Shown here: positions 56,905 to 60,214 of the stretch, one piece after another
Numbering within the stretch: position 1 is the stretch's first letter
How the letters are laid out: each line of letters starts with the position of its first letter
Assembly (NCBI RefSeq): GCF_005876955.1
Contig: NZ_SSCL01000002.1
Location: 248,001-312,000, forward strand
Length of the DNA stretch: 64,000 nucleotides
From: Sinomonas gamaensis
GTDB taxonomy: Bacteria > Actinomycetota > Actinomycetes > Actinomycetales > Micrococcaceae
Direction: 5' to 3'
Notes under the pieces: model-generated
Databases searched by the model: none
What the model was told of the DNA's origin: nothing
Seen by the model: only the letters and a program-made list of their open reading frames with translations
Position numbers and translations under genes: made by a program

Positions 56905-57552
56905 TCATTCCTCCCCGGCGCCCGAGCGGGTCGCCACGAACTGTGCCAGGTCCTCGATCGAGATGAGGGGGCATCCGTGCTCGTCAGCGAACTCCCGAAG
57001 GGCGGGAAGCCTCATCATCTCTCCGTCGTCATGGACCACTTCTGCAATCACTCCTACAGGAGCCAAGCCTGCCAGACGGCAGAGATCGACGGCCGCCTCG
57101 GTGTGGCCCTGGCGAGCCAGCACACCACCATCAACCGCACGCAACGGGAATATATGCCCCGGGCGGGAGAAGTCCGCCGCCGTCGAACTCGCGTCCGCCA
57201 AGGCCACCACAGTCTTGGAGCGGTCCGTCGCGCTGATGCCCGTCGAGATGCCAGACCGCAGATCGCACGAGACGGTGTAGGCGGTTCCCTTCGCGTCCTG
57301 ATTGTCCACGACCATCGGCGGCAGGAGCAGACGGTCCGCGATCTCGCCGGCGAGCGGAACGCAGATCACCCCGGACGTGTGCCTGATCGTCCAGCCCATG
57401 AGCGCCGGAGTGGAGAACTGTGCGGCGAAGATGATGTCGCCTTCGTTCTCGCGGTTCTCGTCGTCCACGACGACGACGGCCCTGCCGGCGCGGAGCGCGT
57501 CCACGGCGGCCTGAACCGGCTCGAGCCGGATTGCCTGCGCTTGAGCGCTCAC
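56905..57552 (-). CDS. ribB: 3,4-dihydroxy-2-butanone 4-phosphate synthase
   Basis: Forms the four-carbon unit of riboflavin from ribulose 5-phosphate. 215 aa. The acidic loop VVDDENRENEGDI binds magnesium and FAAQF, SGISTGISATDR and RPGHIFPL complete the active site. GTG 57552 overlaps the ribE stop by four bases (GTGA). The rib genes ribD-ribE-ribB-ribA-ribH overlap or abut up to ribA, suggesting one co-translated unit. Confidence 0.96.
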   Translation of the reverse strand: MSAQAQAIRLEPVQAAVDALRAGRAVVVVDDENRENEGDIIFAAQFSTPALMGWTIRHTSGVICVPLAGEIADRLLLPPMVVDNQDAKGTAYTVSCDLRSGISTGISATDRSKTVVALADASSTAADFSRPGHIFPLRAVDGGVLARQGHTEAAVDLCRLAGLAPVGVIAEVVHDDGEMMRLPALREFADEHGCPLISIEDLAQFVATRSGAGEE

Positions 57553-58166
57553 GCCGTCACCCCCTGAAAGGCCATCAGGCGTGCGGCGTACTTGGCCATC
57601 ACGTCCACTTCGAGATTGACCGCCGCCCCGACCGGCTTGCTCCCCAACCCCGTCTCCGAGAGCGTTGCCGGGATCAGCCCGACCTCGAACCACTGGTCGC
57701 CCTCCTCTGGGGCGCTCACGGCAGTCACGGTGAGGGAGACGCCGTCGACCGCTATTGATCCCTTCTCTGCGATATAGGGAGCAAGATTCCCGGGCACCGA
57801 GAACCGGAGCCTGTGCCAGTTCTCCAGCGGTTCACGTTCGGCAAGGATCCCGACCCCGTCGACGTGCCCCTGCACCACGTGCCCGTCGAGACGGCCGCCC
57901 GCGGGGACGCAGCGCTCAAGGTTCACGGTGTCTCCCGCCTGGAGGCCGCCAATCGTGGTCCGCGCGAGGGACTCCCCCATGACGTCTACGGTGAAGGTGT
58001 GTCCGTCGTTGCTCGTCGCCGTGAGGCAGCAGCCGTCGACGGCGATCGACCCGCCGAGCGGGAGATCCGCGGCGAGTGTAGGGGCAGAGAGCGTGATGAC
58101 GGCGCTCTTTCCGGTCGAATCGACCGCGACGACGGTGCCGCGCTCGGCGATGATCCCTGTGAACAT
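57549..58166 (-). CDS. ribE: riboflavin synthase alpha chain
   Basis: Dismutates two lumazine molecules to riboflavin. Two lumazine-binding repeats are seen: MFTGIIAERGTV with SIAVDGCCLT in the first, and DGHVVQGHVDGVG with SIAVDGVSLTV in the second. 205 aa. The ATG at 58166 overlaps the ribD stop by one base, and its end overlaps ribB by four bases. Confidence 0.97.
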   Translation of the reverse strand: MFTGIIAERGTVVAVDSTGKSAVITLSAPTLAADLPLGGSIAVDGCCLTATSNDGHTFTVDVMGESLARTTIGGLQAGDTVNLERCVPAGGRLDGHVVQGHVDGVGILAEREPLENWHRLRFSVPGNLAPYIAEKGSIAVDGVSLTVTAVSAPEEGDQWFEVGLIPATLSETGLGSKPVGAAVNLEVDVMAKYAARLMAFQGVTA

Positions 58167-59296
58167 CAGTGGATTCCTTCCGCGAGGGGATGGATGTGGT
58201 CGGGGGTGACGGATGACGCTGAGGTGACGACGGGTCGGAGGTGGAGGCGAAGATCGTCTCCGAGGCGGCGCACCGCACCCCCGCCGCTCTCGTCCCAGTC
58301 CCACCGCTGGGCGTCGGCGAGTGTTCGGATACCGAGGTCCGCGATGGTGTTCTTGCCGGAGCCGAGGATCAGGGGTGCCTGGTAGACGATGAGCTCGTCG
58401 ACGAGTCCCGCTGCGAGGAACGCGGCAATGATGCGGGAGCCTCCCTCGACCATGACGTGCCGGACGCCTACATCGAACAGCGCCGCGAGTGCCTCTGCCG
58501 GGTTCTGGGTTCGCAGGTGGCGGAACCGGCCGTCGTCGCCTCGGACGGCCGCGCCTTCCGGCACGTCACGGAGTCCCATCACCGCGCGCAGGGGCTGATG
58601 CTCATGGGGCGTTCCGTCGGAGGATCGCGCGGTGAGCCGCGGATCGTCGATCACGACAGTCTGGCTGCCGACGAGGATGGCGTCGATGCGGGCGCGGAGC
58701 GAGTGGTTGTCCGCGAGCGACTCGGGGCACGTGATCCATTGGCTCGTGCCATCCTCTGCCGCGATGCGGGCGTCGAGCGTCTGGGCCATATGGAGCGTCA
58801 CAAAAGGACGTCTTGCCCTGACCGCTGCGAACCAGCGCTCGTTGAGCGCCTCGGCCTCGTCCGCGAGGAGTCCGGGTTCGACTGCGACCCCTGCTGCCCG
58901 CAGAGTACGGGCTCCGCCGGACGCGATGTCGTGCGGGTCATCGACGGCGTACACAACCCGAGAGATGCCTGCCTCGATGAGGGCCTGTGCACACGGCCCT
59001 GTTCGCCCTACGTGATTGCACGGTTCGAGAGTGACGTACATCGTTGCCCCAGCAAGCTCCACGCCGTCGCGTGCCGCATTGGCAATCGCATCCGCCTCGG
59101 CGTGGGCAGTACCGGCACCCCGGTGAAAGCCTGTGGCGAGAATCGTGCCCTGAGGGTCGACCGCGACCGCTCCGACGAGCGGGTTAGCTCCCCGGACGCC
59201 CTGCGTCGCGAGTTGGAGCGCGACGCGCATGAACGACGCGTCGGGTTGCGACCACGACGGGCCAGCTGCTCCTTGAGAGCCTGCGGGATTGCTCAT
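58166..59296 (-). CDS. ribD: bifunctional riboflavin deaminase-reductase
   Basis: Deaminates and then reduces the pyrimidine intermediate. The N-terminal deaminase (to ~residue 145) has zinc ligands in TAHAEADAI and LEPCNHVGRTGPC. The C-terminal reductase has ILVGSQTVVIDDPRLT and VMVEGGSRIIAAFL. 376 aa. ATG 59296 has no ribosome binding site of its own. It overlaps the stop of a 22-codon upstream ORF by four bases, so its translation probably depends on that ORF and hence on the FMN riboswitch. Confidence 0.96.
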   Translation of the reverse strand: MSNPAGSQGAAGPSWSQPDASFMRVALQLATQGVRGANPLVGAVAVDPQGTILATGFHRGAGTAHAEADAIANAARDGVELAGATMYVTLEPCNHVGRTGPCAQALIEAGISRVVYAVDDPHDIASGGARTLRAAGVAVEPGLLADEAEALNERWFAAVRARRPFVTLHMAQTLDARIAAEDGTSQWITCPESLADNHSLRARIDAILVGSQTVVIDDPRLTARSSDGTPHEHQPLRAVMGLRDVPEGAAVRGDDGRFRHLRTQNPAEALAALFDVGVRHVMVEGGSRIIAAFLAAGLVDELIVYQAPLILGSGKNTIADLGIRTLADAQRWDWDESGGGAVRRLGDDLRLHLRPVVTSASSVTPDHIHPLAEGIH

Positions 59297-59361
59297 CCGC
59301 GGACCGCCGTGGCGGGCGTGGGGTAATTAAGGCTTGAGCAGAGCCACTGCTGAGAGTCCAT
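59293..59361 (-). CDS. 22-codon upstream ORF between FMN aptamer and ribD
   Basis: ATG 59361 follows the strong site AAGGAAGG by about five bases. The peptide starts MDSQQWLCSSLNY and is not recognised. Its TGA overlaps the ribD ATG (ATGA, 59293-59296), the hallmark of termination-reinitiation coupling, and ribD has no site of its own. It reads as a leader peptide through which riboswitch control reaches ribD. Too short to judge by codon use; the evidence is the site strength and exact overlap. Confidence 0.7.
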   Translation of the reverse strand: MDSQQWLCSSLNYPTPATAVRG

Positions 59362-59403
59362 CGCAACCTTCCTTTCCGGACCGCAGCGGCTCCGGGGTTG
59401 CGA
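59361..59403 (-). promoter_or_regulatory. stem that can hide the leader-ORF ribosome binding site
   Basis: TCGCAACC and GGTTGCGA (59396-59403 with 59361-59368) form a perfect 8-bp stem that covers the end of AAGGAAGG and the A of the start codon. A nested hairpin CCGGA/TCCGG (59376-59380 with 59391-59395) lies inside. It is placed just past the FMN aptamer and is a natural expression platform. Confidence 0.6.
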
Positions 59404-59441
59404 CAGAGGCGGCACACCGCTGACGGTGCACCGCTGACTGC

Positions 59442-59580
59442 ACGTGCTTCTCCCATCCAGACTTTGACTGTCGGTACCGGAATTCCACCGGTTCAACCGG
59501 AAGCCCAGTTCACATCGAGCTGGACCGCCGGGTCGCGGACTGTTACCGCCGGTTCGGACTTTCACCGACCCCGGAGCACG
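59442..59580 (-). ncRNA. FMN riboswitch (RFN element)
   Basis: The minus strand carries the conserved RFN blocks: GGTCGGTGAAAGTCCGAACCGGCGG-type start (GTGAAAGTCCGAACC), ACAGTCCGCGACCC, GGTGGAATTCCGGTACCGACAGT-type core (AATTCCGGTACCGAC), and CAAAGTCTGGATGGGAGAAG at the 3' side. Arms pair at both ends. It controls the rib operon; FMN binding would lower ribDEBAH expression. Confidence 0.95.
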
Positions 59581-59710
59581 TTCATTCGTGGTGGTCGATG
59601 GCTCCCTATCCGAGGACGGAGGACCACGGCCAATGACATTGTGGCATACCCTGAGGCAGGCTCGTGACGTTCGGCGTCACGAACGTCATCTGCGCTGTTG
59701 ACGTCGGGGC

Positions 59711-59918
59711 CCCCACCGCCCACATCGGGTCTCCCACCGCCGACATCGGGTCTTCCACCCCCGACATCGGGTCTTCCACCCCCGACATCGGGTCCCCCAC
59801 CGCCGACATCGGGTCCCCCACCCCCGACATCGGGTCCCCCACCGCCGACATCGGGTCCCCCACCGCCGACATCGGGTCCCCCACCGCCGACATCGGGTCT
59901 CCCACCGCCGACATCGGG
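59711..59918. repeat. tandem array A, about 10 x 21 bp
   Basis: Ten near-identical 21-bp units built on CCCACCGCCGACATCGGGT, phased exactly every 21 bp (CATCGGG at 59723, 59744 and so on to 59912). Variation is mostly G/C at one position and C/T at the junction. Because the period is a multiple of three, several frames stay open on both strands and would encode heptapeptide repeats; I see no start signal and do not call a gene. Confidence 0.95.
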
Positions 59919-60004: not shown

Positions 60005-60214
60005 CCCGACCTCAGCGCCACCAGACCCGACCTCAGCGCCACCAGACCCGACCTCAGCGCCACCAGACCCGACCTCAGCGCCACCAGACCCGACCCTCAG
60101 CGCCGCCAGACCCGACCTCAGCGCCGCCAGACCCGACCTCAGCGCCACCAGACCCGACCTCAGCGCCACCGGGCCCGACCTCAGCGCGACCGGGCCCGAC
60201 CTCGGCGGGGGCGC
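60005..60214. repeat. tandem array B, about 10 x 21 bp
   Basis: Ten units built on CGACCTCAGCGCCACCAGAC with 21-bp spacing (CCCGAC at 60005, 60026, 60047, 60068, 60089, then 60111 to 60195), with one 22-bp unit. The last copies are more diverged. It begins a few bases past the rpe stop. Its minus strand carries the same TCGGGTC core that array A has on the plus strand. Confidence 0.95.

Follow-up and report, generated by a model that had tools for sequence, protein, structure and literature searches.

A reading frame between the FMN riboswitch and ribD of Sinomonas gamaensis, apparently a relic of pnuX/ribM, may relay riboswitch control in Micrococcaceae

The short open reading frame (ORF) that separates the FMN riboswitch from ribD in Sinomonas gamaensis is, according to the comparison of related loci, what remains after decay of pnuX/ribM; this gene, for a riboflavin transporter, lies intact between riboswitch and ribD in relatives. 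Taken as a whole, the results are probably best explained by a fossil pnuX leader whose start is closed in the presence of FMN and whose translation gives access to ribD by termination-reinitiation. The window analysed here is a stretch of 64,000 nucleotides of the S. gamaensis genome, and the positions given below refer to it.

Organisation of the riboswitch and ribD region

The features of the operon front, all located on the minus strand, are as follows:

59441..59582, minus strand: FMN riboswitch aptamer (RFN element), Rfam RF00050, 96.6 bits against a cut-off of 66.2, full length (1-138 of 138)
59367..59375, minus strand: Shine-Dalgarno (SD) tract AAAGGAAGG of the leader ORF, anti-SD duplex of -12.0 kcal/mol
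59293..59361, minus strand: leader ORF of 22 codons plus TGA, peptide MDSQQWLCSSLNYPTPATAVRG, a pnuX/ribM relic, as judged from the progressively shorter pnuX forms of the genus
59293..59296, minus strand: ATGA overlap of the leader TGA with the ribD ATG, read from the sequence
58166..59296, minus strand: ribD (deaminase/reductase), Pfam PF00383 (dCMP_cyt_deam_1) and PF01872 (RibD_C)
57549..58304, minus strand: riboflavin synthase alpha ORF, next in the operon, Pfam Lum_binding; the start is mechanically listed and probably too far upstream, making the ORF too long
56905..57693, minus strand: 3,4-DHBP synthase ORF, after riboflavin synthase, Pfam PF00926, with a mechanically listed start

The first-pass annotation of this DNA had claimed an RFN aptamer upstream of the 59361-59293 ORF, a strong ribosome-binding site for this ORF, an overlap of its TGA with the ribD ATG, and the absence of a ribosome-binding site belonging to ribD itself; each of these claims was confirmed. 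The leader ATG at 59361 lies 79 bases past the aptamer end, with GGAAAGGAAGG just 5' of it. Anti-SD pairing as strong as that in front of the leader occurs at only 0.07% of 3000 random window positions, while the pairing 5' of ribD (-4.5 kcal/mol) is equalled at 30% of them. The window thus has two sequence features of termination-reinitiation coupling, an overlapping stop/start (ATGA) and a second SD that is weak (-4.5 vs -12.0 kcal/mol). An uncoupled downstream start of ribD was considered and rejected, as the window contains no in-frame ATG, GTG or TTG from the ATGA start to the tryptophan common to related RibD N-termini.

Neither an intrinsic-terminator-like site nor a sigma-70-type promoter was found in 59150-59720; Rho sites and other promoter types lie outside these scans. 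Two 21-bp tandem arrays (window 59700-59918 and 60005-60207; 10.4 and 9.6 copies, 93-95% matches) are situated between the rpe gene and the riboswitch.

Origin and distribution of the leader reading frame

The riboswitch is present in all 15 genomes of the genus Sinomonas, and its locus carries an intact pnuX in five, a truncated leader in nine and a fusion in one. The intact gene at this place in L027 encodes a PnuC-family protein of 249 aa (PF04973 at 147 bits). Such genes were taken as pnuX/ribM, and not pnuC, on the basis of their place behind an FMN riboswitch; the name and the riboflavin-transporter role follow the available text of PMC4418817. The truncated forms make up a series of 79 codons (L031), 67 (L038), 47 (L029 and L030), 44 (L034), 24 (L035 and L039), 23 (L037) and 22 (the window), and the leader of S. 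cellulolyticus (L047) has 23 codons. When compared with intact pnuX, L031 matches 195 of 203 nt at the front and 27 of 32 nt at the end, and L047 matches 49 of 52 nt and 13 of 16 nt, respectively. Both ends of pnuX are therefore kept, which points to internal deletions. In the window leader the front is kept (18 of 22 bases) and the end is of the same kind. The window leader alone would be insufficient as proof of descent from pnuX, and it is the graded series that, at the level of sequence, proves it. In L036, which over 150 bases does not differ from S. mesophila L049, the first pnuX codons (MDSLQWL) are fused in frame to RibD.

The search for a full-length PnuX elsewhere in the ten genus genomes without an intact copy, using the L027 protein as a query, gave no match in six and only a relic (41-71 aa) in four. 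The S. gamaensis genome itself held no match above the PF04973 cut-off (27.3 bits) and none to the L027 PnuX at E 0.001. The window leader is not a member of PF04973, as 22 codons are too few for a domain of 175 positions, and it can only be regarded as a relic. A second PnuC-family gene in the same genome was considered and rejected: the two PF04973 matches, of 20.8 and 14.9 bits, are both under the cut-off. The former is a small membrane-protein ORF on contig 15 (L161), and its neighbouring ORFs were read by eye as ribF and truB.

For the family-wide comparison, 142 loci (L001-L142) were collected, four of which come from other families of the order (L007, L015, L021, L026) and were excluded, leaving 138 of Micrococcaceae as judged by named genera. 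After the removal of 12 copies (identical over 150 bases) and six loci in which no aptamer end could be recognised (L131, L134, L136-L139, half of them with pnuX-like matches), 120 distinct loci remained. Another 18 order-level regions (L143-L160) stand outside all counts. The distinct loci comprise 60 with intact pnuX, 42 with a leader, one fusion and 17 with neither, a split that is not a survey, as the 80 named loci are the best 80 of 269 relatives picked by RibD similarity to the window. The leaders span 21-79 codons. In a species sample the riboswitch was present in 58 of 60 family genomes; the counts cover 49 of them, with pnuX intact in 32, a leader in 12, neither in four and the fusion in one, and the other nine are three copies and six loci without an aptamer end.

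Among the 17 loci with neither pnuX nor leader, five have mini-leaders of 13-19 codons (L057, L060, L064, L090, L127) that overlap ribD and lack the RNA (RWL) arm; perhaps they represent a further stage of erosion. Their overlaps are GTGA, ATGA or TAGTG. The scan found no overlapping leader in the remaining 12. Six Arthrobacter loci (L078, L079, L086, L087, L096, L109) have no leader, and their ribD apparently begins at a TTG behind GGGAAGGA, directly past the riboswitch.

Mapped on a quick RibD tree, which is weakly supported in many places, the leader state, with the fusion counted in, requires 14 changes, gains or losses, of which at least four are forced by well-supported branches; the leader has therefore been gained or lost more than once. 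The intact or not-intact state of pnuX requires five changes within Sinomonas.

The first-pass annotation had proposed conservation of the frame and of the overlap across Micrococcaceae as a check of its reading, and both are conserved. All 42 motif-found leaders, each from a distinct locus without pnuX, overlap ribD (33 ATGA, 7 GTGA, 1 TTGA, 1 TGATG), and the distances place all of these overlaps in the ribD frame. Counted irrespective of frame, a start codon overlaps the stop of intact pnuX in 55 of 60 loci (28 ATGA, 20 GTGA, 1 TTGA, 6 TGATG). As the overlap is common to leaders and intact genes, the coupling looks ancestral. In 42/42 leaders and in 52/55 intact loci the first ORF has a stronger SD than ribD. 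No in-frame stop occurs in 988 leader codons, while the other two frames contain 11 and 10. The peptide of the leader seems to be nearly free, and its reading frame is not.

RNA structure at the leader start

Two helices and a switching strand were recognised between the aptamer and the first leader codons:

59569..59577, minus strand: GCTCCGGGG, aptamer 5' side including P1 and bases past it, candidate for the antisequestor strand, a perfect 9-nt complement of 59397-59389
59396..59407, minus strand: helix B 5' arm TCTGTCGCAACC, from fold and pairing, including the earlier-noted 59403-59396
59389..59397, minus strand: CCCCGGAGC, putative switching strand, which in the folds pairs with 59577-59569 or, via GAGC, into helix A
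59383..59392, minus strand: helix A 5' arm GAGCCGCTGC, covarying helix
59357..59368, minus strand: helix B 3' arm GGTTGCGATGGA, over the leader start codon, 12 contiguous pairs
59341..59350, minus strand: helix A 3' arm GCAGTGGCTC, third base of codon 4 through codon 7 of the leader ORF, covarying helix

In the window, helix A has 10/10 pairs, one of them G-U. Its 5' arm is the strand just before the ribosome-binding site, and the SD is left in the loop, not paired. The covariation of helix A was analysed on 84 distinct sequences from 99 loci with arms and compared with 500 shuffles, the 5' arm being the best-pairing of the candidate sites. Cells with two-sided change numbered 39 vs 11.3 in shuffled data, the covariation was 0.205 vs 0.139 (0/500 shuffles as high in both cases), and 96.4% of cells were paired vs 27-54% in slid versions of the helix. 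In the same 84 sequences, neither the pairs with two-sided change (3 vs 2.0, with 49/500 shuffles as high) nor the further pair types (9 vs 9.0) were in excess. The two-sided changes fall on pair 7 (27 sequences), pair 8 (11) and pair 9 (1) and correspond to few events on the tree, with five changes on each side of pair 7 and two and three at pair 8; the independent pairs were too few for the sign tests. By sequence comparison, helix A covaries.

All ten pairs of helix A are formed in 42/42 leaders, in the fusion and in 46 of 56 intact genes; the helix is imperfect in the other ten intact loci, and four more intact loci gave no arms. The figure for the leaders holds partly by construction, because the leaders were found by a pattern requiring [CG]NNTGGCT after the start, which contains 6/10 bases of the 3' arm, and because the 5' arm was chosen by pairing. 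In the 27-codon leaders of other loci, the ten arm bases (GCGATGGCTC there) are invariant in 21/21 sequences, and so are, in particular, the four of them that lie outside the search pattern (the third base of codon 4, the second and third of codon 5 and the third of codon 7). Positions 1-2 of codon 4 and position 3 of codon 8 are variable, and codons 9-27 drift with a pN/pS of 0.82 (21 leaders, pairs at most 25% different). Since the arm bases are invariant while codons 9-27 drift, the front-end arm appears to be conserved as RNA and not as peptide. In the same leaders (e.g., L054, L067, L068) codon 10 is GCC in 21/21 and codons 9 and 11 vary; this codon is not part of helix A, and no partner turned up for it.

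These data bear on the view that the leader is only a decaying pseudogene without a regulatory role, that ribD uses its own or a downstream start and that the deletions happen to be recent. The gene pnuX is plainly lost, codons 9-27 drift almost freely, and the 12 loci in which the scan found no overlapping leader indicate that some lineages can do without it. Against this, the overlap is kept in every leader and the frame stays open over all 988 codons, the leader state has changed more than once on the tree (14 changes, at least four of them forced by well-supported branches), the nine bases of codons 5-7 never vary in 21 distinct loci with a 27-codon leader, and the window ribD has neither a strong SD nor another in-frame ATG, GTG or TTG before the tryptophan shared by related N-termini. 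We therefore consider mere decay rather unlikely.

Helix B corresponds in part to an 8-bp stem (59361-59368/59396-59403) that the first-pass annotation had proposed to hide the leader ribosome-binding site. All eight pairs were found, and the stem extends to 12 pairs, two of them G-U (59357-59368/59396-59407); however, of the SD tract no more than the last two G lie within it, and the element it closes is the start codon. Without constraints, the segment 59590-59280 folds with the antisequestor pairing in place (-130.8), while the fold of the same segment with P1 forced has helix B over the start codon (-128.8). The predicted unpaired probabilities of the three start codon bases are 0.01, 0.02 and 0.01 in the P1-forced fold vs 0.76, 0.87 and 0.08 in the antisequestor fold. 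In the isolated platform helix A is nearly as stable (-52.1 vs -54.0), and by its coordinates it excludes helix B, except as a pseudoknot.

An antisequestor pairing of 8-11 nt can be drawn in 98 of 99 loci, the exception being L141, which has no P1 match. Folding of 98 loci with either P1 or the antisequestor imposed gave the switch no support across the family: open and closed starts were not told apart, the start being more open in the antisequestor fold in only 22/42 leaders, 25/55 intact loci and 1/1 fusion. Outside Sinomonas helix B mostly has about six pairs, at a position that is not constant with respect to the start, and it is not claimed for the family.

Proposed mechanism and relation to known systems

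The ancestral layout would have been FMN riboswitch, pnuX, ribD, in which the riboswitch controlled the translation of pnuX and ribD was coupled to it at the overlapping stop/start. The gene would then have been lost by internal deletions, with its start, its first seven or so codons and its overlap with ribD retained, probably because codons 4-7 form an arm of the off-state helix and because ribD lacks a strong start of its own. In the absence of FMN, the 5' strand of the aptamer would pair with CCCCGGAGC and leave the leader start open, so that ribosomes would translate the leader, terminate at its TGA and reinitiate at the ribD AUG that overlaps it. With FMN bound, P1 of the aptamer would form and CCCCGGAGCCGC would be released; the leader start would be closed by helix A (59392-59383/59350-59341), by helix B (59407-59396/59368-59357) or by both, and the leader, and hence ribD, would be switched off. 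FMN riboswitches generally work as off-switches, and it is from this property and from the window folds that we infer the direction of switching; the respective use of helices A and B and the reinitiation step are likewise put forward as a proposal.

Control of the leader by the riboswitch, with ribD reached by reinitiation, had already been suggested in the first-pass annotation. Because frame and overlap are conserved in Micrococcaceae, it appears to be the best reading of the locus; the origin of the leader as a relic and the covarying helix in codons 4-7 had been missed. In more general terms, we lean towards the view that an expression platform placed in the first codons can act as an evolutionary anchor: when the gene is lost, its front end and stop/start junction are compelled to persist as a peptide frame without function that relays the signal to the next gene. 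This would have been repeated for pnuX/ribM in Micrococcaceae, with the ribD fusion (S. mesophila) and the loss of the leader as end points.

A different possibility is that the main target of the riboswitch is transcription or mRNA stability, through Rho or RNase, and that translation of the leader only protects the mRNA. In Corynebacterium glutamicum and Escherichia coli, FMN riboswitches are known that act partly through transcription or an RNase. The available text of PMC12810186 describes a translational platform combined with Rho-dependent termination in Mycobacterium tuberculosis. The scan of 59150-59720 revealed no intrinsic-terminator-like site, though Rho sites are not covered by it, and the modelled helix geometry would close the leader start, which speaks for a translational step. 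As the main route of control this explanation is therefore unlikely, and it is compatible with the relay as an added layer. That the leader peptide or ribosome stalling within the leader is the signal, as in classical attenuation, seems very improbable: the Trp codon 6 is conserved (its TGG being part of the search pattern) and the GCC codon 10 is invariant in 21/21 27-codon leaders, but the peptide is otherwise weakly conserved (pN/pS 0.82 for codons 9-27), the Trp and its neighbours can be explained by the RNA arm and by pnuX ancestry, and no connection between Trp and the control of riboflavin is known to us.

The first-pass annotation was not aware of any description of this layout; a relay of this kind is known. 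According to the available text of PMC11260477, the B12 riboswitch of M. tuberculosis ppe2 drives uPPE2, and ribosomes get to PPE2 mainly through termination-reinitiation where the two frames overlap as AUGA. Both cases come from actinobacteria, and in both an off-type riboswitch would mask the start of a short upstream ORF followed by a gene without an obvious SD. They differ in the ligand (B12 there, FMN here), and the relay was tested there, whereas here it is deduced from sequence. As to origin, the authors of that work speculate that ppe2 invaded a cob locus, while the short ORF described here would stem from the erosion of an ancestral first gene. Unlike the ppe2 case as presented there, the layout described here occurs in many species and has one arm of its platform inside the codons of the ORF. 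In the second M. tuberculosis system, the pe20 Mbox with rv1805A, the riboswitch also directly controls a small ORF before an operon through a translational platform, but the ligand is Mg2+ and, in the portion of PMC12810186 considered, the upstream ORF is highly conserved, with a homologue elsewhere, and not a relic of a lost gene.

In Actinobacteria, pnuX/ribM is described as FMN-regulated and, in some organisms, as part of the riboflavin operon (PMC4418817, PMC3766115); the available portions of these accounts make no mention of truncated pnuX or leader ORFs. Leader genes with reinitiation (PMC4833913) are alike in that a short ORF near a structural gene is proposed to feed ribosomes to it, with Actinobacteria among the groups for which they are reported, and differ, in the text available, by having no riboswitch and no relic origin. 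Among the matches listed from the open-licence PMC literature, the available texts presented no such FMN case and no relay ORF derived from a lost gene; subscription papers lie outside this scope. What appears to be new is the FMN case and the repeated emergence of the relay out of a fossil gene that the expression platform apparently keeps where it is, the relay itself being already known.

The natural series from the intact gene through 79, 67, 47, 44 and about 22 codons to fusion or loss may allow the minimal parts of a riboswitch relay to be read from the genomes. It also calls for caution, since the first reading frame past a riboswitch may be a short relay ORF. Some regulatory upstream ORFs may thus have their source in the remnants of lost structural genes, held by RNA structure and translational coupling and not by their peptide.
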